DNA of 64,000 nucleotides, from the NCBI RefSeq assembly GCF_030551755.1, contig NZ_JAUPEC010000008.1:62001-126000 (forward strand), in the 5' to 3' direction. Both the position numbers and the translations under genes were made by a program. The notes beneath the pieces are model-generated. The model saw only the letters and a list, made by a program, of their open reading frames with translations, was not told where the DNA came from and did not search any database. The number at the start of each line of letters is the position of its first letter. Position 1 is the stretch's first letter. Of this stretch, positions 5,959 through 19,487 are shown piece after piece. The DNA is from Pseudocolwellia sp. AS88 (lineage in GTDB: Bacteria > Pseudomonadota > Gammaproteobacteria > Enterobacterales > Alteromonadaceae).

Positions 5959-6867
5959 ATGCAAGAAAATCATGAAAATTTAGGTTTTGTTCGAATCGGG
6001 AATCAGCCACCCGTAACATCACTTACCCTAAATCGAATTGCGAAGTGGGAAGCACAAGCAGTCAAGACCAAACAGTATACGCCGTACATTAAGCTAAAGC
6101 GCACACCAACGGTTGGTAAGGGTAGTAAGATTTTTAACCCTGAATCCGATGATAGTCATGAGACTCTGTCGATTATGGAAACTCGATTGCTGAGGTACTT
6201 GGATTTCCTACCGAATGTTATTTCTATCAAAACACAATACCCGTTACTACCAATCAAAACGACACTAGAAATAGCCGATGCTATGAGAGTAAAGCATCCC
6301 AGTTATACCCCAAAAGGCAAGCACATACGGCCATTTCTCAAAGTTAATCAAGCGGTTGTTATGACGACGGATTATCTGATTGATTACTCAGATGAGGATG
6401 GCGTTTTTAAGCAATGCGCGATAGCTCTTAAAGGAGTGAACGAAGATGGACTTTTCTCTGAGAAGCAAAAACGTGATGTAAACATACGCAATAAACTCAA
6501 TATTGAAGTCGAATTCTGTCGAATTGACGGTTTGGGTTGGCGTTTGGTGACTTCTGCAATGCAGTGCTTTGAAGAGGATTTTGCCCGCAACTTATTGGAA
6601 GCAGAAGTTCGAAGCGAACTAGAAATTGATGAAGTGCTTCTGGTAAAGGTCGAAGAAGCTTTCAAGCATAGATTTCGTGAGATGCCTAGAGCTTGTTTCA
6701 CAGCTTTGTTATCTAGCATCGCACTTCAATTAAATCATTCTACGGGGAAAATACGTGGGTCGTTCTGGAAACTTATTTGGCAGAAGCGATTACCAGTTGA
6801 TATATCCAAAGAAATTATCTTTAACCGCCCTTTGCCTATAGGAGAAAAAATATGGAATTGGCAATAA
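5959..6867 (+). CDS. tnsA: Tn7-like transposition endonuclease TnsA
   Basis: TnsA cuts the 5' ends of the element so that TnsA plus TnsB excise it cleanly. The 302-residue protein has the N-terminal nuclease pattern: Glu74 (SIMETRLL), Asp138 (TTDYLIDY) and Lys158 (CAIALKG), matching the E-D-K restriction-enzyme-like site of TnsA. A C-terminal winged-helix-like part follows. The start is fixed by aaaggag upstream. It overlaps tnsB by 16 bp, indicating translational coupling. All predicted catalytic residues are present, so it looks intact. Confidence 0.9.
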   Translation: MQENHENLGFVRIGNQPPVTSLTLNRIAKWEAQAVKTKQYTPYIKLKRTPTVGKGSKIFNPESDDSHETLSIMETRLLRYLDFLPNVISIKTQYPLLPIKTTLEIADAMRVKHPSYTPKGKHIRPFLKVNQAVVMTTDYLIDYSDEDGVFKQCAIALKGVNEDGLFSEKQKRDVNIRNKLNIEVEFCRIDGLGWRLVTSAMQCFEEDFARNLLEAEVRSELEIDEVLLVKVEEAFKHRFREMPRACFTALLSSIALQLNHSTGKIRGSFWKLIWQKRLPVDISKEIIFNRPLPIGEKIWNWQ

Positions 6868-9071
6868 ATAAAGTTCTTGTCGCACCGCCTCTTCATAGTG
6901 AAGACATTAACCATGCGCGATTCACTGTTGTCGAATATGAGTATGGTTCTAACATTGTTATATTGTGCCAGCAGGATAGAAGACGGCCTAAAAAACCATT
7001 TGTTCATCGAATCGGTAGCCCTCTCAAACTAACACACTGTTCCGCAACCGAATGGGTCGATTGGCACTTATTTTCATTAGTTAGTCAGAGTTTTTCGGAC
7101 GCAGTTCACATCCGTTATTATCGAGATTTATGGTTGTCGCAAAACATCCCAAGGGGAAAATCGAAAATCATTGAACACTTCTTTAAACGACGAGAAAACC
7201 GTAAAAAGAAAGTGGAAGAAAAGCGACGCGTAGTTGATGCGTTTGAGCAGATTATTCAGCGGAAAGTGGCTTTCTTCAATGGGGATATCCCAACTCGAAG
7301 CATTAAATCTTTCGCAAAAGGTCTCGGGGTAACTTACGACTTTTTGTGGGATACACTTTGTGTTTACTATGCTTTTGGCCAATGTGAAGAGGCACTTATT
7401 CCTGCATATGGGAATTGTGGCAGTAATTTCGCAATGCCTGAAAATACTAAAGATGCTGAACGTCGTTTTCCTACAGGTAGAGGACGAAAGCGAAAGTCAA
7501 ACAATCAAGTTAAACGGGTATCAAATAAAAACGACTTTAAATGCGTGGAGGAATTTACTAAGTCAAATTTCGACGGTGAAAAATATCTAAGCATAAAGCA
7601 CTTATGCAAACTTTATAATGCCAAGTACGCCATTACGGTGATCTATGAAGATGACTTCGGGAGAAAGATTTACGACTATATCCCCGAAAAATATTTAACG
7701 GTATCTCAGTTTAAAACGCTTTTATTTAAGGCATGCGATGGTCGAACTAAATTCGAAAAAATAAAACATGGCGCAAAAGAGTTTCGTAACAAATTTAAGA
7801 TTCAAACCAGCACTGTCATGAAGCATGTTATTGGCCCAAGTCACATGTATGAAATTGATGCGACCGTTCTGGATGTTCACCTAATTTCTAAATACTGCAC
7901 TGAAGAGAGCTTGCCTATTGAGCGGCCTATTCTTTATTCGGTTGTTGATGTTAGCACTAACATTTTCGTTGGTTTTCACTTATCTCTTAATGGAGCGAAT
8001 GTTGAAGCAGTGTGCCTTGCGCTGTTTAATGCGATGTCTGACAAGGAACAATTTTGTAAACAATGGGGTTATGACTATCAGCCCGGTGATTGGCCTTGTC
8101 ATCACGTCTGTCATACCTTAGTTATTGATAGAGGAGCAGAATATCTTGATGCAGCTATGTCCGCACTCATTAAGTCACAAATAGGCCTTGCTTCTATTCA
8201 AATTACGGAAGCCTATTTAGGTCGGGCTAAAGGGTCAGTAGAAGGGTTATTCAATAAGCTCAATAAAAGCTGCATCCACGGACTTCCCGGAGCGCTCATT
8301 AAAGGCCGTGCAAAAGCTAAAAAAGATCCATCCAATCATGCCGTATACACCATTGATGATCTCTATTACATCCTTATTGAAGAAGTCATTGCACACAATA
8401 ATCACACAATCCTGAATAAGAAGGTGACACAGGAACACCTCGAAAATGGTATTAGGGGAATTCCCAGAGAGCTATGGAATTGGGGGATGGATGAGTTGAT
8501 GGACGGTGGGAAAACAGTCGATCCTAAAACCCTGATGAGTGCATTGTTGCCAAAGAAAAAAGCCATTGTCAGTAAAACAGGGGTGGAATTAATGAAAGAG
8601 GGTTTCAATTATCAAACTTCTAACAAGCAGTTTGAAGAATTGAGGCAGGAGATCTCCATTGATCCCAAGCGCTCAGGTTTCGAGATTGAAGTCATGGCCC
8701 TTCCTTCTTGGACTCAAAAGGTGTGGTTTCAAATGGGTACTACATCAAATGACATTATCGACTTTGATTTGGCTGACTCTAACGAACTGCTGAAAAATCT
8801 TCACTCCGAAGAGGGATTAGCAGTATTAGAGGACATGGCCGTATTCGCTTCTGGTGCACGCTACGCTAACAGTGTTGATGATTCTATTCGAGTAAAAAAA
8901 CAGCGAGATATCGCTGCAAGCAATTGTGAAAACCTGCGCGGTCTAATGCGCCCTGAAGGTAAGTCACCCGCTAAAGGTAAGAAGTTGAATACAAAAGTAG
9001 ACAGGTTCTATGAGGCACAAAATAACGCTAATACAGTTTGCACTGCGATGAGCGACGATTATAACCACTAA
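6852..9071 (+). CDS. tnsB: Tn7-like DDE transposase TnsB
   Basis: TnsB binds the element ends and performs 3' cleavage and strand transfer. The 739-residue protein carries a retroviral-integrase-like core with Asp336 (MYEIDATV), Asp426 (LVIDRGAEY) and Glu464 (GRAKGSVEG), a D-x89-D-x37-E arrangement. DNA-binding helix-turn-helix sequence is upstream of the core, and the C-terminal tail probably contacts TnsC. Its ribosome binding site (taggag) lies within the end of tnsA. The catalytic triad is intact. Confidence 0.93.
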   Translation: MELAINKVLVAPPLHSEDINHARFTVVEYEYGSNIVILCQQDRRRPKKPFVHRIGSPLKLTHCSATEWVDWHLFSLVSQSFSDAVHIRYYRDLWLSQNIPRGKSKIIEHFFKRRENRKKKVEEKRRVVDAFEQIIQRKVAFFNGDIPTRSIKSFAKGLGVTYDFLWDTLCVYYAFGQCEEALIPAYGNCGSNFAMPENTKDAERRFPTGRGRKRKSNNQVKRVSNKNDFKCVEEFTKSNFDGEKYLSIKHLCKLYNAKYAITVIYEDDFGRKIYDYIPEKYLTVSQFKTLLFKACDGRTKFEKIKHGAKEFRNKFKIQTSTVMKHVIGPSHMYEIDATVLDVHLISKYCTEESLPIERPILYSVVDVSTNIFVGFHLSLNGANVEAVCLALFNAMSDKEQFCKQWGYDYQPGDWPCHHVCHTLVIDRGAEYLDAAMSALIKSQIGLASIQITEAYLGRAKGSVEGLFNKLNKSCIHGLPGALIKGRAKAKKDPSNHAVYTIDDLYYILIEEVIAHNNHTILNKKVTQEHLENGIRGIPRELWNWGMDELMDGGKTVDPKTLMSALLPKKKAIVSKTGVELMKEGFNYQTSNKQFEELRQEISIDPKRSGFEIEVMALPSWTQKVWFQMGTTSNDIIDFDLADSNELLKNLHSEEGLAVLEDMAVFASGARYANSVDDSIRVKKQRDIAASNCENLRGLMRPEGKSPAKGKKLNTKVDRFYEAQNNANTVCTAMSDDYNH

Positions 9072-9104
9072 GCAATTTAAAATTAATTATAGGAGTATTA
9101 ATCA

Positions 9105-10409
9105 ATGAAATCAAAGTCTAAAAAAAGTCAATGGGTTTCACCAACGAAACTTAATCCACTAGTTGCTAAATTAAACCTGATAGGCGATAAGCAAGCGTTT
9201 ATGTCTCAGATCGAATTAAGGCAGGATAAACAGTTTAACTTTAATGGGGTAGATGCTCGTGAGAGGAAGCGAGTGTTTGGCTGTGAGTTTTATGCGCCAA
9301 GCGACTTTGCATGGGAAATATACAAAGCAATTAGTGAAATGATTGAATTTGGCTATCGCTTTAAAAATATCGCCTATCCTAGTTTTTACGCAGATATGAA
9401 CAAGGCTGCAATTGGTGGTCAAAAAAGAGTGGAGGGAAAAATCAAAGCAGACAAAAAGATTGACATGGCAGGGTGCATTATCGGCCCTGCCGGACTGGGT
9501 AAATCAGAAACGGTTAACCGCGCTGTGGATATGCTCCCAACGACGATCCTACACCCTGCAAGTGATACTGCTTATCAAAAGTGTTTTTTGCAAATCCCTT
9601 GTATTAAGACTGATATCAATGGGCGTTCGACACTCAGCGTACTGCAAAATTTATTAGCAGCAATTGATGACAAGATAGGAACAAAGTATTACGAAGATAA
9701 CCCTCAACGTAAAGGTGAAGGACATCTAATTGAGGCTTTGGCAAACGCGTGCTGGCAGCATGGAATCGGCCTTGTTATTTTGGATGAGGGGCAGATGCTT
9801 ATAACTGAGAGTGGAAAAGTGTCAGGTAAAGATTCGCCAAATGCGAAATTTCTTCAGCGTTTATTTAATTCATTGAAGGTTCCAATTTTACTCATTGGTA
9901 CACCTGAGTTGGAAGACTTTTTATCTTGCAATGCACATACCCTTCGCCGCTACAAAAAAGACGCAGATATCACTTTAGACAACTATCCACAAGATAGTGA
10001 TTATTGGGATAATTTAGTTACAACGATTATTCAGAAGTATGTGTTTTGTCGTGAAGTGGTATTGACTAGTGCATATTTACGCCAAATCCACGTTTATACA
10101 GCCGGAAATTACAGTGCTCTTCAAATTTACTGTAAAGCATTGATAGACCACGTGGAGGAGTTAAACATAACGAGGTTGAGTGAAAAGTTATTGAAGGACG
10201 TGTATGAACTTAAAAAGTCGGTATTGAATAAATTGACTCGCTTGCACAAAAAGCCAATTCAAGAAAGAAGCTTAAAAGTGTCATTACAAGCATTAAAGCA
10301 TACTAAGAAAGTTGTTCCAATGCCAAATGATCAGACCCCTGATAGTGTTGCTTTGAACCAAAGCAAAGAGTTAGGACGTGCCGCTCATGACATATTTCGT
10401 AAGAGGTAA
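9105..10409 (+). CDS. tnsC: Tn7-like AAA+ regulator TnsC
   Basis: TnsC is the ATPase that links target selection by TniQ/TnsD to the TnsAB transposase. The 434-residue protein has a Walker A motif GPAGLGKS at residues 127-134, Walker B VILDEGQ with Asp227-Glu228, and a later Arg-rich segment. It belongs to the TnsC/TniB branch of AAA+ proteins. The start has a clean ataggag 10 bases upstream. Its stop lies 5 bp before the next start, so the genes form one operon. Confidence 0.92.
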   Translation: MKSKSKKSQWVSPTKLNPLVAKLNLIGDKQAFMSQIELRQDKQFNFNGVDARERKRVFGCEFYAPSDFAWEIYKAISEMIEFGYRFKNIAYPSFYADMNKAAIGGQKRVEGKIKADKKIDMAGCIIGPAGLGKSETVNRAVDMLPTTILHPASDTAYQKCFLQIPCIKTDINGRSTLSVLQNLLAAIDDKIGTKYYEDNPQRKGEGHLIEALANACWQHGIGLVILDEGQMLITESGKVSGKDSPNAKFLQRLFNSLKVPILLIGTPELEDFLSCNAHTLRRYKKDADITLDNYPQDSDYWDNLVTTIIQKYVFCREVVLTSAYLRQIHVYTAGNYSALQIYCKALIDHVEELNITRLSEKLLKDVYELKKSVLNKLTRLHKKPIQERSLKVSLQALKHTKKVVPMPNDQTPDSVALNQSKELGRAAHDIFRKR

Positions 10410-10413
10410 AGTG

Positions 10414-11346
10414 ATGAATACTCATATTATTGACCATTACGCAGCTCAAATTCCTATTTTACCGGGGGAGTATCTCCCGGCTTATTTGTCTCGTTTGCGT
10501 AAAATGACTAGTGGAGTAGACCCTCGAAGATTGATGTCATTTAGTGGCTCAGCGCAGTTAGGAAAATTACATCAGCTATTCCCACGAGTTGCTTCGTGTT
10601 TTGCATATAGAGAAAGTGCAAGAGAGTACAGTGGTGTTTTGTTAAAAGAGCATCTAGGGTCAAGGTTTTGGAGAGGCTTTGTTGGCGAGCAGGCCTATCG
10701 TGAACATATCAAGTGCGTCAAAAGTCGTGTGAAATCTAAGCGGAGTGTTTTTGAAGGCGAAGAGATATTGGATGGACTAAAACCGATGAAATTCTGTGCA
10801 GATTGTCGTGTTGCTGATATTGAAAAATACGGTGTACCGATTTGGCATGCTACTCATCAAATTACTTCGATTTATTTATGTGCAGTCCACAGTAAGCCTC
10901 TTTTAAGTTTCCAGCTTAAGTTAGGTGAAACACTGTTAGATTATCCAGTGATTAACGATGAGGTGTTGAGTCTTGGCATCGAGATTAAATCGGATGAGCT
11001 TCGTAATTGGTTGAACAATCAATCTCGTCAGTTGCTGAGCATATCATCAGAGGATAACCGCAACCGCCTAAAAGACGTAAAGTCCTCTATGGCTAGCGCT
11101 ATGGGAGCCAGAGTAACTACTAGGAATATGCATTTAGATATTACCTACAGATTAGAGTGGCGTAAGTATCTCTCTGATGCTTTGACTAGACTATGTCCGT
11201 CAGCGCAGAATTACGCTTTATTTTCAGATAAAGCTAGTTTGGGATTGCCTCAGCAATTGAAGCTGACAGTTCCAGTTCGGCATCCTTTAGTCTTTTTGTT
11301 AGCGATGAAGTTTGCTGAAGATGCGACGGAGTTTAAAGCCTCATGA
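10414..11346 (+). CDS. tniQ: TniQ-family target-selection protein, short form
   Basis: TniQ proteins recognise or recruit the target site and load TnsC. The protein opens with the family signature (PGEYLPAYLSRL) and contains a zinc-finger pattern Cys128-x2-Cys131 ... Cys156-x2-His159. I prefer the ATG at 10414 (MNTHII, with gagg seven bases upstream) over an in-frame ATG at 10378 that lies inside tnsC; this gives about 310 residues. It overlaps the next tniQ by ATGA. Its short length, without a large C-terminal domain, resembles the TniQ adaptors that work with a separate target binder. No cas genes are present in the window. Confidence 0.85.
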   Translation: MNTHIIDHYAAQIPILPGEYLPAYLSRLRKMTSGVDPRRLMSFSGSAQLGKLHQLFPRVASCFAYRESAREYSGVLLKEHLGSRFWRGFVGEQAYREHIKCVKSRVKSKRSVFEGEEILDGLKPMKFCADCRVADIEKYGVPIWHATHQITSIYLCAVHSKPLLSFQLKLGETLLDYPVINDEVLSLGIEIKSDELRNWLNNQSRQLLSISSEDNRNRLKDVKSSMASAMGARVTTRNMHLDITYRLEWRKYLSDALTRLCPSAQNYALFSDKASLGLPQQLKLTVPVRHPLVFLLAMKFAEDATEFKAS

Positions 11347-12716
11347 TATCTGCTTATGCGCCACCAATATACCATGATGAAACGATATATTCTTATGTGG
11401 CGCGTTTGCATATGTATCGAGCAGAAACTAACCATAGAGTTAGTGCGCAACGGTGGTTTGGGAAGTCTCCAGTAAATATCGACCAGAGATTACCTTTCGG
11501 TATACAGCATCTTGCAGAGTCTACAGGTTATTTAACAAATCAGCTGCTTTACAACCACACATTTTTTCCGTTATTTTCAGGATTTGTTTCCAGACCAGAT
11601 TTATTAAAACAAACTATGCTTTCTAGCTCTGGTTATAACCTTGCAAATGTTTCTGCTGTTGCGCAGGCAGCAATGAAACAACTCGGAGGTAGTTGGTATT
11701 GTCCAGAGTGTATTGAACAAGATAGGCATACATTTGGTCTAGCATTTTGGCATTTGAGCCATCAAATGCATGGGGTGATAAGTTGTCCTGTACACGCAAT
11801 AAACCTGCGTTATTTGAACACATCGAGTCGTAAATTTTATCTTCCTCCACAATTAGATAATACGCCGAGAACAATTGCATCAAAACACGCAGTGAGACTC
11901 ACTGATTTGATCCTGCGCTACAGTCATGATTATCAATTTTTTTCTTACGACTGCCGAGAGGATTATTGGGGTGGTCCAGTAGAGCTTGTTCGATTGAAAA
12001 AACTACTTAAAGGTCAAAGTGTGGACATGACCTTACTGCTCCCACAAGCAAACGAGATATCAGTATCAATATTCGGTTTTAAACTTCTCACCAAGAGTGT
12101 GGTTTTCAATATTCTGCACAAGAGCAACTATAATTGCCACCCTCTAAAATACATCTTTCTTTGCTACGTGCTTGATCAAATGCGTGATAAGGAAAGAAGT
12201 GTACAGATGTCTACAAAAGAAGAGACGGACAAATTACTGGTAGATCGTGAACGTTGCATTAAATTACTAAATAAAAGAACTTATTCATTGCGTGAGATAT
12301 CGAGACGACTTAAGCGAAGCGTTAACTTTGTAAAGAGTATTGCGAATCAAATTGGCATTGTTTTTCAGAAGCGGACTCAGTTTATTACTTCAGATGTAGA
12401 AGCTAAAATACTACAAAGCGCTCACGTTGGGTTGCACAGGAAAATTATTGCAGAGCGAGAGGGCGTGTCAGTAGGATCTGTTGAAATACTTATCCAAAGT
12501 GTGCCCGGATTGAGTGAAAAACGAAAAAGTATACGGATGGATAAGCGACGATTAAGTGCTAGAGAATCCATATTTAAGGCTATAAGTGCACAGTCAGGTA
12601 TTACTCGAAAAGAGCTGAAGAATTTACATTATGCCGATTACACATGGCTTTATAAACATGACAATGAATGGCTGTATCAGATATTACCACCAGCTAAGAA
12701 TTACACAAAAAAATAG
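11343..12716 (+). CDS. TniQ/TnsD-like target-site selector, long form
   Basis: The 457-residue protein starts with the TniQ signature (YHDETIYSYVARLHMYR) and has a zinc-binding Cys120-Pro-Glu-Cys123 ... Cys148-Pro-Val-His151. Its C-terminal 170 residues contain two helix-turn-helix-like segments (YSLREISRRLKRSVNFVKSIA; HRKIIAEREGVSVGSVEILI), as in TnsD, which binds a fixed chromosomal attachment site. It is the second of two adjacent TniQ-family genes, translationally coupled to the first. The likely division of labour is site recognition by this protein with adaptor function or an alternative target for the shorter one; that is inference. Confidence 0.85.
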   Translation: MISAYAPPIYHDETIYSYVARLHMYRAETNHRVSAQRWFGKSPVNIDQRLPFGIQHLAESTGYLTNQLLYNHTFFPLFSGFVSRPDLLKQTMLSSSGYNLANVSAVAQAAMKQLGGSWYCPECIEQDRHTFGLAFWHLSHQMHGVISCPVHAINLRYLNTSSRKFYLPPQLDNTPRTIASKHAVRLTDLILRYSHDYQFFSYDCREDYWGGPVELVRLKKLLKGQSVDMTLLLPQANEISVSIFGFKLLTKSVVFNILHKSNYNCHPLKYIFLCYVLDQMRDKERSVQMSTKEETDKLLVDRERCIKLLNKRTYSLREISRRLKRSVNFVKSIANQIGIVFQKRTQFITSDVEAKILQSAHVGLHRKIIAEREGVSVGSVEILIQSVPGLSEKRKSIRMDKRRLSARESIFKAISAQSGITRKELKNLHYADYTWLYKHDNEWLYQILPPAKNYTKK

Positions 12717-13008: not shown

Positions 13009-13373
13009 GATATCTCAATTGTTTAAAATGCAGATATGCGATTCAGATAAAATGAATTCCCTCTCAAATTGCTTCAGAGCTATTTCCAATCACAAAACTT
13101 ACAACTATGACAAATATATACTTGAAATCTGGTGTTACCGATTTGTAAGCTCATTATTCTGGATCGAATTGAATCATCTGTTAGAGAAGAAGAATATACA
13201 AATTGGATGGTAAATATATTTGTATTATAGGTATTAGTTCAAACTGATTATACTCTCACTAACGGGGAACTTAGTTGTTCTAAAGTACAGTCTTAGAATA
13301 AGTAGAATAAGGGCTATGAAAGGCCCCAAAGGGGAACTTAGTTAATCTACACAACTATCTGAAAATTAATATT

Positions 13374-13407: not shown

Positions 13408-14418
13408 TTAAACCCAATTTATTTTTAGTTTTCTTTTCTTTTTATTAGCAGGTGCATTGATTTTGTTCATCGTTTTTTGATTTATTGCATTTATGCCTAA
13501 TTTTTTTCTTTGCTCCACAAGCTTTTTACCTAATTGCTTATATCTCCCATTAATTTGCCCTGCAGAGAATAAATGGCCTTGTAGTACTTGAAATTCACGC
13601 ATTAAATCATCAGGAGGTATTGATGAATTATTTAAACTTTTATTTAATTTCTGCTTTAACATAAATATTTTATGTCTGTGTTTGTTACAGACTTTTAAAA
13701 TATTATTTACTATTACTACACCAGTAATAGGTTTAGGGGTTCCATCATTATATGCTCTAATCTTATGGCAATCTAATTGCCTATTTCTTTTAAGATACTT
13801 AACTATATAAGATTTGAATTTAGAGGTTATCTTTTTACCTGAAAAAGTTAAATCATCAACATACACTGTGAAATTAATTTCGTTATCAAAGCTATATTTA
13901 GCTATGTGGTCGAATGCAGATCTACTAGCAATGTATGCCATGTTTTGACTTAATGGACTACCCGTAGGTATGAAACCATTGTATGTTGACAGTAAAGCGA
14001 TTGTTTTTGCAATATCATGTGAACATTTGAATTTATTTCTAAATACTTTTTCGATATTAATAAGCTTTACACTTTGGTAATACTTTTTAATATCTACTTT
14101 ATACACAACATCTGATTGTAGGTGATCTTTACCATTCTTTATATGAGATCGTCCTTTAACTCCTGAGTTCATATATTTAGGTATTTCAATACGATTGAGT
14201 AATGAATTTAAACGTCTATGAATTCGAGTCATTTGAGGAAGAGGAACTTCAATCAGTCTTCCAGATGGAAGTTTTGATTCGTAGTAGTTGTAGTCACCTT
14301 TGGATGTTATTTTTTTTAATTGAGCTGTAGATTCTAATAATAGTAATTTAGCTAATTTTGAATGAGAGTTTAATTTGAAAAGAGGGCTTTGATTAAGTGG
14401 GTATCTATTTTTCTTCAT
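13408..14418 (-). CDS. Retron-type reverse transcriptase
   Basis: The 336-residue RNA-directed DNA polymerase has motif A with Asp109 (VDIKKYYQS), the GFIPTGSPLSQ fingers/palm motif, the catalytic YVDD box at residues 186-189 (YVDDLTFSG), and an ITG at 231-233 where retron RTs usually have VTG. There is no maturase, endonuclease or protease domain, which fits a retron or other domesticated bacterial RT rather than a group II intron. The basic C-terminus could bind its RNA template. The start overlaps the upstream XRE-like gene by 14 bp. Retrons normally pair the RT with a structured RNA and an effector or regulator gene; candidates for both are just upstream. Confidence 0.88.
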   Translation of the reverse strand: MKKNRYPLNQSPLFKLNSHSKLAKLLLLESTAQLKKITSKGDYNYYESKLPSGRLIEVPLPQMTRIHRRLNSLLNRIEIPKYMNSGVKGRSHIKNGKDHLQSDVVYKVDIKKYYQSVKLINIEKVFRNKFKCSHDIAKTIALLSTYNGFIPTGSPLSQNMAYIASRSAFDHIAKYSFDNEINFTVYVDDLTFSGKKITSKFKSYIVKYLKRNRQLDCHKIRAYNDGTPKPITGVVIVNNILKVCNKHRHKIFMLKQKLNKSLNNSSIPPDDLMREFQVLQGHLFSAGQINGRYKQLGKKLVEQRKKLGINAINQKTMNKINAPANKKKRKLKINWV

Positions 14419-14695
14419 TTGCTTTCCTTAGCCATAAAATCATATCAAAATATTTATTGATACATTTTATTATTATTTTATAAAGATAATTTTTATTTTT
14501 ACTAAATAACATTCTTAAATAAATTGAACTCACAGACAGATGGTCAGCGTAGTATTTTATGAGAGCATTAGGTATGGGATGTTTTTCTGATTCTATACCG
14601 TTGAGAATATCTTCACTTACTCTTATATCGGTAGAAACTTGAGAAGAAGTTATTTTTAGAACTAATCTCAATTTTAAGATTAAACTCATATTCAT
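14405..14695 (-). CDS. XRE-like helix-turn-helix protein
   Basis: The 96-residue protein has an XRE/Cro-type pattern in residues 5-60 (LKLRLVLKITSSQVSTDIRVSEDILNGIESEK), with divergent helices. Its C-terminal half is Lys- and Ile-rich. It is translationally coupled to the RT. A perfect 10-bp palindrome (acctgcaggt) lies at 14707-14716 directly before it, a possible autoregulatory site. An ATG two codons further in is an alternative start. Some retrons carry an HTH protein beside the RT, so this is probably a regulator or antitoxin-like partner; the role is inference. Confidence 0.6.
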   Translation of the reverse strand: MNMSLILKLRLVLKITSSQVSTDIRVSEDILNGIESEKHPIPNALIKYYADHLSVSSIYLRMLFSKNKNYLYKIIIKCINKYFDMILWLRKANEEK

Positions 14696-14706
14696 TTAGG
14701 TTATAT

Positions 14707-14716
14707 ACCTGCAGGT
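14707..14716. promoter_or_regulatory. 10-bp palindrome before the XRE-like gene
   Basis: The perfect palindrome acctgcaggt lies 11 bp upstream of the XRE-like start. A related acctgcaagt is at 15012-15021 in the structured region. It is a candidate operator for the XRE-like protein. Confidence 0.35.
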
Positions 14717-14740
14717 GATTCACTATTGAGAATTTCTCCT

Positions 14741-14923
14741 CTAAAGAGTTGGAAAGGTTAACCCCGCGTATGATAACAGGCCAATTATTAGTAACTTTGC
14801 TAACCAGAAAAGTATCTTTCCAGCGAGACTTAATAAAAAACTAATCACCCATTTATGCCCAAGTAGACATGCAATGGTTCCAAAAAATCGTTTTCTGAGA
14901 GCTTTCAAGTATTCTATAAACAT
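14741..14923 (-). CDS. 60-residue hydrophobic membrane peptide
   Basis: The peptide has a basic N-terminus (MFIEYLKALRKRF) followed by a hydrophobic stretch from about residue 29 to 56, one long or two short membrane helices. A good ribosome binding site (taaggaataaaccg before ATG) supports translation. It is the first gene of the RT cassette and is followed by the XRE-like gene and the RT. Small basic-hydrophobic peptides beside an HTH gene often act as membrane toxins, and retron types with membrane effectors are known. Whether this one is an effector is untested. I do not recognise its family. Confidence 0.5.
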   Translation of the reverse strand: MFIEYLKALRKRFFGTIACLLGHKWVISFLLSLAGKILFWLAKLLIIGLLSYAGLTFPTL

Positions 14924-15011
14924 CGGTTTATTCCTTATAATTACGACACTCTCTAGGAATGCCTCACATAGTAATTATTAGTACCTACTTACTTGATTAT
15001 CAGAAAATATT

Positions 15012-15128
15012 ACCTGCAAGTTAACCTGCCCAATTTCACATTGGGCGAACCGGGCGGCCGAGGACGACTGAAGTGCCAAGAGCCATACCGTATCAGGTAG
15101 AGCGTAAAACGCTCCGCAGAACTTGCGT
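15012..15128 (-). ncRNA. Structured RNA candidate upstream of the RT cassette
   Basis: Read on the minus strand, this GC-rich segment is closed by gcaagtt / aacttgc arms. Inside are a gagcgt-ttt-acgctc hairpin and a gcccaat-gtgaa-attgggc hairpin, with a GC-rich stretch between. It stands out sharply from the AT-rich surroundings and lies about 90 bp upstream of the first gene of the cassette on the same strand, where a retron msr-msd RNA would be expected. I cannot identify a branching guanosine or a long msd hairpin with confidence. Confidence 0.4.
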
Positions 15129-15310
15129 TCTAATTTTAAGCTATTTCTAACTAGTGTGAGATTATTTCAAGTATTAAAGAAAGCAAAATTATAGTATTCG
15201 ATTCATTTGTAGCTGTAAATAACTTATTTAATTTATATTCATTTACCTGGGTGAAATCATAATTTTAAGTATGAATATTACTAATAAGTTGATCGAATGC
15301 TTGAGGTTTT

Positions 15311-15848
15311 TGTCGCGGTGGCGACGACACCCAAAAGGAGGCTGCCTCCGGCCTCCCTTTGGAATCCCTCGGAGCTGCTTAAAAATGTATTCTTCATAAA
15401 ACTACTAATGTTTTGAGCTAACGTTCAGAACGCACATCCATGTGCTACTTCACTTTGCTGGCGTCCTGCCAGCAATCGCTGAACATTAGTATTTTATTCA
15501 GTATTTTTAAAAGCAGACTAGGCGCTAGCTAATAGTTTTGTATTTCATCTTATGTACTTAAAATGGCTGAGAGTTAATAACTATTAGCTATTTATACTCA
15601 AGGTGTTTTCTGGATAATTTAAGCGATCACCATTTCCCATCTCAGCGATTCAATTAGATATTAGCGATAGTAGGCCTCGACCCGAGACAGGACGTCGAGG
15701 GCTGCCGTTGTTCATGGATGATAAATCGGCAGATTTCGAGGGTTACAGCTAATGCTAATTGAATGTTTTAGCTGAGTAGGGCGCCGCAGGGGTTCCAAGG
15801 GGAGGCGCGGCGGTACGTCGCCCCTTGGGTGCCGTCGCCACCGCGACA
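15311..15848. mobile_element. GC-rich hairpin element with inverted-repeat ends
   Basis: The ends at 15311-15333 and 15826-15848 are 23-bp inverted repeats with one mismatch. Similarity continues inward less perfectly for about 30 bp (cctccctttggaatccct against cctccccttggaacccct). Inside lie hairpins at 15312-15325, 15337-15349, 15432-15445, 15456-15474, 15527-15589 (11-bp arms), 15675-15700 and 15702-15732, plus an outer stem joining about 15379-15412 to 15482-15510. There is no coding frame. It resembles a non-autonomous mobile or highly structured DNA/RNA element. Confidence 0.6.
15621..15645 (+). repeat. 25-bp repeat, copy 1
   Basis: It begins agcgatcacca and ends ccatctcagc, and matches 16719-16743 with two mismatches in the same orientation. 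It lies inside the GC-rich element. Its role is unknown. Confidence 0.6.
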
Positions 15849-15985
15849 ACTAAAGATAAGCGACCACTAAAACTAGGATGATAAAACAGTAAATTGACGC
15901 ATTACTAAGCAAAAAGTATAATTTATTCTAGCTTGAGGTTATATCTGACATTACTAAATCAATTTAAATTAATTAGGTGTACGAC

Positions 15986-18464: not shown

Positions 18465-19487
18465 TTATTGAATACTCTCAATTAGCTCAATCGTGTCTTG
18501 ATAACATTCTTCACAAAAAACTATAAAATCATCAAGTTCATTTCCAACATGATATAACGCTTCACCTGCTTTAGGAGCTTTATACTTTGCACTGTATTTA
18601 GAAAGAATAGTGATATATTCCAATCTTCGTGTAGCAGGTATGACTAGTGGGGCATAACCAGCTCTTAGTAAAATGAGGTTTGCTATTAAACGTGCAATAC
18701 GTCCATTTCCATCCCAAAAAGGATGTATTTGTCCAAAAATTAAATGTGCTGTTGCATACATCGAAATTGCTTCGCTAATATTCTTAGGTTTACATGATTC
18801 AATATATTCAACCAGAGCAGATGTTAGCTTTGGAACATCAAATGGTTTTGAGTAGGCATGGTATATACGTGAATTATTATCGAGTAATAAATAGGTACCA
18901 TTAGGTACAACTTTGAAATCGCCATAAGGTTTGTCTATATCGAATACAATGTCGGTTTGAACCGCTTTATGTAATTGTTTTATTTTATTTACGGTGAGTT
19001 CATTACTGATTATGTCGTATAGCAAGTCGATTGCTGTGGCGTGTCCCATAACTTCTTTATGATCTTTTAACGACTTACCCGATACGGTTAATCCCTCATT
19101 TAATATAAATTGAGTTTCACCTAAGTTAAGGGTGTTTCCTTCAAGTGCAGTTGAGTTATGTGTCCATATAGTTCGCAACATACTCAGTAATTCTTGTTGT
19201 TTCGAACTAGGTAAACCTTCTAAGAACTTAAAGGTTGGCTTTATTTTGTCTGATGAACTCTCATATTTACGCGTTTTTCTTTCACCCGTAATTAAAACTA
19301 AGCCTTGTTCTGCAGCACTGTTGAGCCAGCGTTGTACTGTACGTCTATCAACTTGAAAATCTGTCGCTACTTTAATTTCACTAATGCTTACCGCTTTTTT
19401 AGCAGACTTTACATAATCAAATATGAGCTTTTTTTCTGTTTTATTTATTTGCATAAGTTTTGTCGCATAAGTGAGTTTATCGGACAT
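18465..19487 (-). CDS. Fic-domain protein with N-terminal HTH
   Basis: Fic proteins transfer AMP or other nucleotides to target proteins. The 340-residue protein has an N-terminal helix-turn-helix (SISEIKVATDFQVDRRTVQRWLNSAA), a Fic core with HPFWDGNGRIAR starting at His255, and an inhibitory motif Ser112-x3-Glu116-Gly117 (STALEGN) before the core, as in class II, self-inhibited Fic proteins. All catalytic residues are present. A 33-bp perfect palindrome covers the upstream side of its start, so the HTH probably represses its own promoter. A partial duplicate of its 5' end lies at 22143-22201. Confidence 0.88.
   Translation of the reverse strand: MSDKLTYATKLMQINKTEKKLIFDYVKSAKKAVSISEIKVATDFQVDRRTVQRWLNSAAEQGLVLITGERKTRKYESSSDKIKPTFKFLEGLPSSKQQELLSMLRTIWTHNSTALEGNTLNLGETQFILNEGLTVSGKSLKDHKEVMGHATAIDLLYDIISNELTVNKIKQLHKAVQTDIVFDIDKPYGDFKVVPNGTYLLLDNNSRIYHAYSKPFDVPKLTSALVEYIESCKPKNISEAISMYATAHLIFGQIHPFWDGNGRIARLIANLILLRAGYAPLVIPATRRLEYITILSKYSAKYKAPKAGEALYHVGNELDDFIVFCEECYQDTIELIESIQ

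Follow-up and report, generated by a model that had tools for sequence, protein, structure and literature searches.

A type VI retron cassette in Pseudocolwellia and a candidate antisense match between its msDNA loop and the leader of a membrane peptide gene

The cassette at positions 13408–15128 of the window, by which is meant the whole 64,000-nucleotide stretch of DNA analysed here, encodes a reverse transcriptase (RT) together with two small proteins and a structured RNA. It raises the questions of what kind of element this is and which of its products might control the small membrane-type peptide that it encodes. All components lie on the minus strand, and the order of transcription is a GC-rich segment (15016–15126), a 60-residue open reading frame (ORF), a 96-residue ORF and the RT gene. 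The original prediction had described a retron-like combination that it was unable to assign with certainty to any described retron type, and had proposed the peptide as a toxin and the XRE-like protein as its regulator.

Class and surroundings of the cassette

The RT gene (13408–14418) encodes 336 residues with an exact YVDD active-site motif, and a domain search of the protein detected no intron or maturase domain. Retron RTs are characterized by the motifs YXDD, NAXXH in region X and VTG in region Y, the valine of the last being replaced by isoleucine also in RT-Vch2 (PMC6868368); the corresponding NGKDH and ITG of the window RT were counted as near-matches. The best PADLOC family was RT_VI (E = 1.1e-71, 239 bits), the next family reaching E = 5.9e-34 and 115 bits. 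In a maximum-likelihood tree of 52 RTs, the window RT grouped with full support with those of G287 (loci L038/L092) and Denitrificimonas caeni (L158), and this group of three was placed inside the type VI clade (support 100/98), separate from other retron RTs.

The 96-residue protein is encoded at 14405–14695, its ORF overlapping the start of the RT gene by 14 nt, and was matched by the PADLOC family HTH_VI (E = 1.4e-6). The HTH proteins of this group of three are divergent, that of the window being 14–32% identical to the others. An AlphaFold model (pLDDT 90.8) gave XRE/Cro-type regulators as the top structural matches of a fold search, but with E values of at least 0.03. The window protein thus belongs, as a divergent sequence, to the type VI HTH family, and its fold is predicted to be XRE-like. 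The 60-residue ORF (14741–14923) supplies the third gene, and relatives whose RTs are about 50% identical or less have the three genes and the RNA arranged alike.

By RT family, HTH family and tree position, the cassette is a type VI retron. The combination of three genes is assignable after all, because type VI is already defined by an RT, a DNA-binding protein and a small auxiliary protein (PMC8541194, in an excerpt citing Mestre 2020). The remaining structural claims of the original prediction held up: the RT is of the YVDD kind and free of intron domains, the HTH gene overlaps it, and the small ORF has a ribosome-binding site. Of the outcomes named there as refuting, those open to sequence comparison were not seen: homologous RTs are accompanied by the two small genes as well as the RNA, and the RT groups with type VI. 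Sequence comparison places the window locus in a three-member type VI sub-clade with divergent HTH proteins and homologous membrane-type peptides of 58–62 residues.

Type VI relatives were retrieved with alignment queries; a search of viral and genome contigs with the window RT as single query gave no matches. Type VI retrons occur in several phyla, on chromosomes and plasmids as well as in phages. Among 5,426 complete genomes of E. coli, 99 carried retrons of the P2 type, O157:H7 strains included, in identity bands of at least 99%, 80–90% and 60–80%. A second RT_VI/HTH_VI subgroup, which forms the sister group of the main type VI retrons, comprised seven loci (L037, L042, L043, L048, L068, L070 and L072) in which the HTH protein starts with MNIG or MLIG and the upstream peptide is longer (70–85 residues) and less basic. 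Loci with the MNIG-type HTH were left out of the statistics given below and their leaders were inspected by eye.

The retron adjoins a Tn7-like module (5959–12716) with a TnsC/TniB-like ATPase, TniQ and TnsD-type proteins, and with ORFs that occupy the places of TnsA and TnsB but gave no Pfam match where searched. Two direct repeats with GGGGAACTTAGTT lie just 3′ of the RT gene (13261–13371). At 15310–15849 there is a MITE-like element of about 540 bp with 25-nt terminal inverted repeats (96%), a related sequence being present on another contig of the same genome (C48); the element contains a match to the Rfam family TwoAYGGAY (15372–15503, minus strand, 45.1 bits). A gene for a Fic/DOC-family protein is located about 4 kb from the retron (18465–19487), and on a Microvirga plasmid a TIR-domain gene (L213:2462–3421) follows a type VI retron.

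Template RNA, peptide gene and peptide leader

The GC-rich segment is closed by the inverted repeat GCAAGTT (15120–15126) and AACTTGC (15016–15022), taken as the a1 and a2 arms, and strong hairpins were predicted within it. The first of these (15100–15115) is by sequence comparison probably the msr hairpin, and is followed by CTACC, as it is in many relatives. The hairpin next to a2, GCCCAATGTGAAATTGGGC (15028–15046), has a loop containing ATGTGA (15036–15041), and at 5 of its 7 pairs both sides had changed with pairing kept among three relatives. According to the general retron scheme, the a2-proximal hairpin would be copied first into msDNA (PMC6868368). No Rfam family matched the RNA, and no clear priming guanosine of the TAGC type was assignable in it. 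From the fold, the three-way alignment and the pair counts, the region 15012–15128 is the best msr–msd candidate, as had been proposed.

The 60-residue peptide is preceded by the Shine–Dalgarno sequence TAAGGA (14932–14937). It has a net charge of +6, a best 19-residue Kyte–Doolittle (KD) value of 2.07 and a predicted helix (pLDDT 72), and is 38–43% identical to the peptides of L092 and L158, with which it has in common the pattern LLGH...W..K..I..LLS..G...P. A short ORF directly 5′ of the HTH and RT genes was found in nearly every type VI locus examined; among 38 representatives these ORFs encode 31–67 residues, are all net positive (median +8) and have, close to the C terminus, a helix that is hydrophobic or amphipathic. 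The gene is recorded as a hypothetical protein in some database records and is unannotated in others. The region of the RNA and peptide is present in one copy in the host genome, and homologues of the peptide are rare in the host's family. The composition resembles that of type I toxins, and together with the homologues and the predicted helix it makes the peptide a plausible membrane toxin and candidate effector, in line with the earlier suggestion.

The leader of this gene, to which the original prediction made no reference, is predicted to fold at 14937–14978 into an outer stem, a bulge and an inner hairpin. The outer stem is formed by ATAATTAC (14971–14978) and GTAATTAT (14937–14944), the inner hairpin by 14945–14963, and the 7-nt bulge on the 5′ side, TATGTGA (14964–14970), repeats the ATGTGA of the RNA hairpin loop. 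The Shine–Dalgarno sequence starts at the 3′ end of the outer stem; its predicted paired fraction of 0.41, against a type VI median of 0.82, indicates partial sequestration. Of the 38 representatives, 28 were predicted to have this architecture, each with an outer stem of different sequence, and therefore the pairing has been kept and the sequence has not. The 3′ end of the outer stem lay at the Shine–Dalgarno sequence, a median of 10.5 nt before the start codon. In eight of the 38 a bulge of this kind was missing from the minimum free energy (MFE) fold.

The leader bulge repeats the hairpin loop, locus by locus

Across type VI loci, the hairpin nearest to a2 was found to have its apical loop repeated, in the same sense, by a leader bulge of about 7 nt. 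Since the repeat in the RNA is in the same sense, a DNA copy of the loop would be complementary to the bulge. The hairpin used was whichever was strongest in the upstream region, and the leader played no part in this choice; start codons and hairpins were picked by simple rules, and the hairpin and leader regions were kept separate in the permutation test. In a set of 27 loci whose RTs are less than 45% identical, the longest string shared by loop and leader was 6.74 nt within a locus and 4.31 nt across loci, and none of 20,000 permutations reached the observed sum; a reverse-complement control gave no excess of matching. When the bulge was taken from the MFE fold alone it had at least 5 nt in common with the loop in 29 of 30 loci (6.43 nt with the locus's own loop against 3.53 nt in cross comparisons, again with 0 of 20,000 permutations). 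As permutations ignore phylogeny, disjoint nearest pairs differing in their loops were also compared, own against swapped, and yielded 12 wins, eight ties and no losses (p = 2.4e-4). Finally, ten loci fetched after the idea had been fixed (two from E. coli, two from Sphingobium, and one each from Microvirga, Serratia, Agrobacterium, Scytonema, Azospirillum and Leisingera) gave p = 2e-5 and added strings not met before, among them CGATGGC, AGGCAAC and GGTGGA; a further held-out locus, L221, had no peptide candidate and was left out. The match failed at L120, L186, L219 and L220.

The window's own match is 6 nt long, a length reached by chance anywhere in the leader in about 20% of shuffles. It is weak alone; what gives it weight is its exact position within the bulge, together with the pattern in the family. 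Comparison across that family establishes the matching of loop and bulge locus by locus, as it does the gene order, the leader architecture and the type VI membership.

In total, 35 different shared strings of at least 6 nt were collected, and loop and bulge were seen to change in concert, for example in CCGAGAGGG/CCGAAAGGA and GAACGAC/GGACGAC. The excess of matching was absent from the base of the 3′ arm of the hairpin and weak at the base of the 5′ arm, and outside the core the identity of loop and leader was near chance. A strand-invasion activator, which would have to extend beyond the core, was considered and is not supported by this near-chance identity.

One interpretation of these data is that loop and bulge act by base pairing, as would be expected of msDNA annealing to the leader. 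It could also be that the hairpin motif, in the msd RNA or msDNA, is a binding site for a protein, either the RT or the one with the XRE fold, and that the bulge copies this site, with no pairing between nucleic acids; the same protein would then repress translation of the peptide when unoccupied by msDNA. We regard this as unlikely, though worth serious attention. A match in the same sense is what a mimic would display, the trinucleotide YGA, present in 27 of the 35 cores, could reflect a preference of the loop fold or of a protein, and the core is invariant among close relatives (RT identity above 74%), which is compatible with coevolution with a protein. However, a single recognition site is difficult to reconcile with more than 30 strings, including AGGCTCGC, AGGCAAC, GGGGCA and GGTGGA, each fully identical inside its locus, and the two sites differ in structure, one being an apical loop and the other an asymmetric bulge. 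Three observations favour pairing over recognition by one protein: the variety of the 35 strings, the unlike structures in which the two sites lie, and the loss of identity to near chance beyond the core.

Proposed control of the peptide and its relation to known systems

The reading to which we give slightly more credence than doubt is that the cassette is a toxin–antitoxin-like type VI retron, in which msDNA acting as antisense DNA would hold down translation of the cationic membrane peptide. A single transcript would comprise the template RNA, a short leader and the coding sequences of the membrane peptide, the XRE-fold protein and the RT. We infer that msDNA is made at this locus, the RT copying the hairpin next to a2, and that its apical loop would then be complementary to the 7-nt bulge of the leader folded around the ribosome-binding site of the peptide gene. 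In the uninfected cell, pairing of the msDNA loop with the bulge would combine with the fold of the leader to keep the peptide untranslated; were infection to remove, block or modify the msDNA or the RT, translation would be released. The peptide, presumed to be toxic, would damage the membrane, and the phage would be stopped by abortive infection, giving the cassette a putative role in phage defence. For type VI retrons at large, we are evenly divided on the corresponding claim that they are toxin–antitoxin systems with a reverse-transcribed DNA antitoxin, the loop of which would pair with the bulge of the toxin leader and control translation.

The antisense step is physically plausible because a retron engineered to make antisense msDNA has already been reported to silence an mRNA (Mao 1995, in PMC6868368). 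No natural antisense msDNA was found described in the openly accessible literature, with few preprints covered, and no effector or mechanism of type VI retrons was described in the literature searched. From the comparative evidence, the msDNA loop acting on the peptide leader is more likely to be the controller of the toxin than the XRE-like protein, to which the original prediction had given that part.

The sign of the control was considered separately. Were msDNA to be made or released on infection, as an excerpt of PMC12039810 describes for the cDNA of some defence RTs (DRT2), it might instead pair with the bulge, open the leader and turn the peptide on; the Shine–Dalgarno sequence already lies in or beside a conserved stem, so that the default could be off. 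This is considerably less probable than mimicry by a protein. Repression is the likelier sign, because RT–msDNA keeps the effector inactive in the retrons studied so far (PMC12409349) and because the matches stop short of the anti-Shine–Dalgarno strand, which a strand-displacing activator would need to reach.

In characterized retrons, the mode described is one in which RT–msDNA holds the effector in a complex, and the peptide itself could be held in this way, with or without the HTH protein, the motif then serving in RNA recognition or processing. Such an ordinary tripartite arrangement gives no reason to expect that each locus should repeat its msd loop in the leader of its peptide gene, and we rate it as improbable, a little below an activating msDNA. 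That the cassette is a decaying, non-functional retron beside a Tn7-like element is scarcely credible, for all that the HTH protein is divergent and has a weak profile match: no ORF is interrupted, relatives conserve the peptide, the RNA and the architecture of the leader, and the model of the HTH fold is a confident one.

The match of loop and bulge points to the small peptide gene as the likely effector and to its leader as the likely target, and it identifies the individual nucleotides on which control would depend. If the pairing is real, it would be a case of natural antisense control by DNA, and msDNA would be a regulator of mRNA besides being a protein-bound inhibitor.

The known type VI retrons used for comparison were those of Mestre et al. 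2020, the PADLOC families RT_VI and HTH_VI, and the elements of Shewanella phage MuM16-1, P2_2H1 and Burkholderia KS5. The window locus resembles them in RT family, in the overlapping upstream HTH gene, in the small protein before it, in the structured upstream RNA and in order and spacing, but differs in belonging to a three-member sub-clade, in its divergent HTH protein and in a more hydrophobic peptide that is homologous among the three members. Complementarity of loop and leader was not described for type VI in the literature searched, which was mainly open access. With Retrons Eco1/Ec86 and Sen2 the cassette would have in common, besides an RT, msDNA and an effector held in check; their effectors are different, and control is described there at the level of protein and not through the effector mRNA.

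Type I toxin–antitoxin systems (tisB/istR-1, hok/Sok, Fst, Ldr and TimP) likewise combine a tiny membrane-type peptide, a structured leader near the ribosome-binding site and a nucleic acid capable of pairing with the leader, as far as excerpts of PMC8309996, PMC7708055 and PMC11228461 describe them. Their antitoxin is an antisense RNA, whereas the candidate here is a reverse-transcribed DNA loop matching 5–10 nt, at most working like one, with an RT and an HTH protein encoded in the operon. The engineered antisense msDNA of Mao et al. 1995, as related in PMC6868368, likewise silences by pairing of msDNA with mRNA, which at the window locus is a candidate pairing; that system was man-made, from Retron-Eco5 (Ec107), whereas the match described here is natural and conserved.
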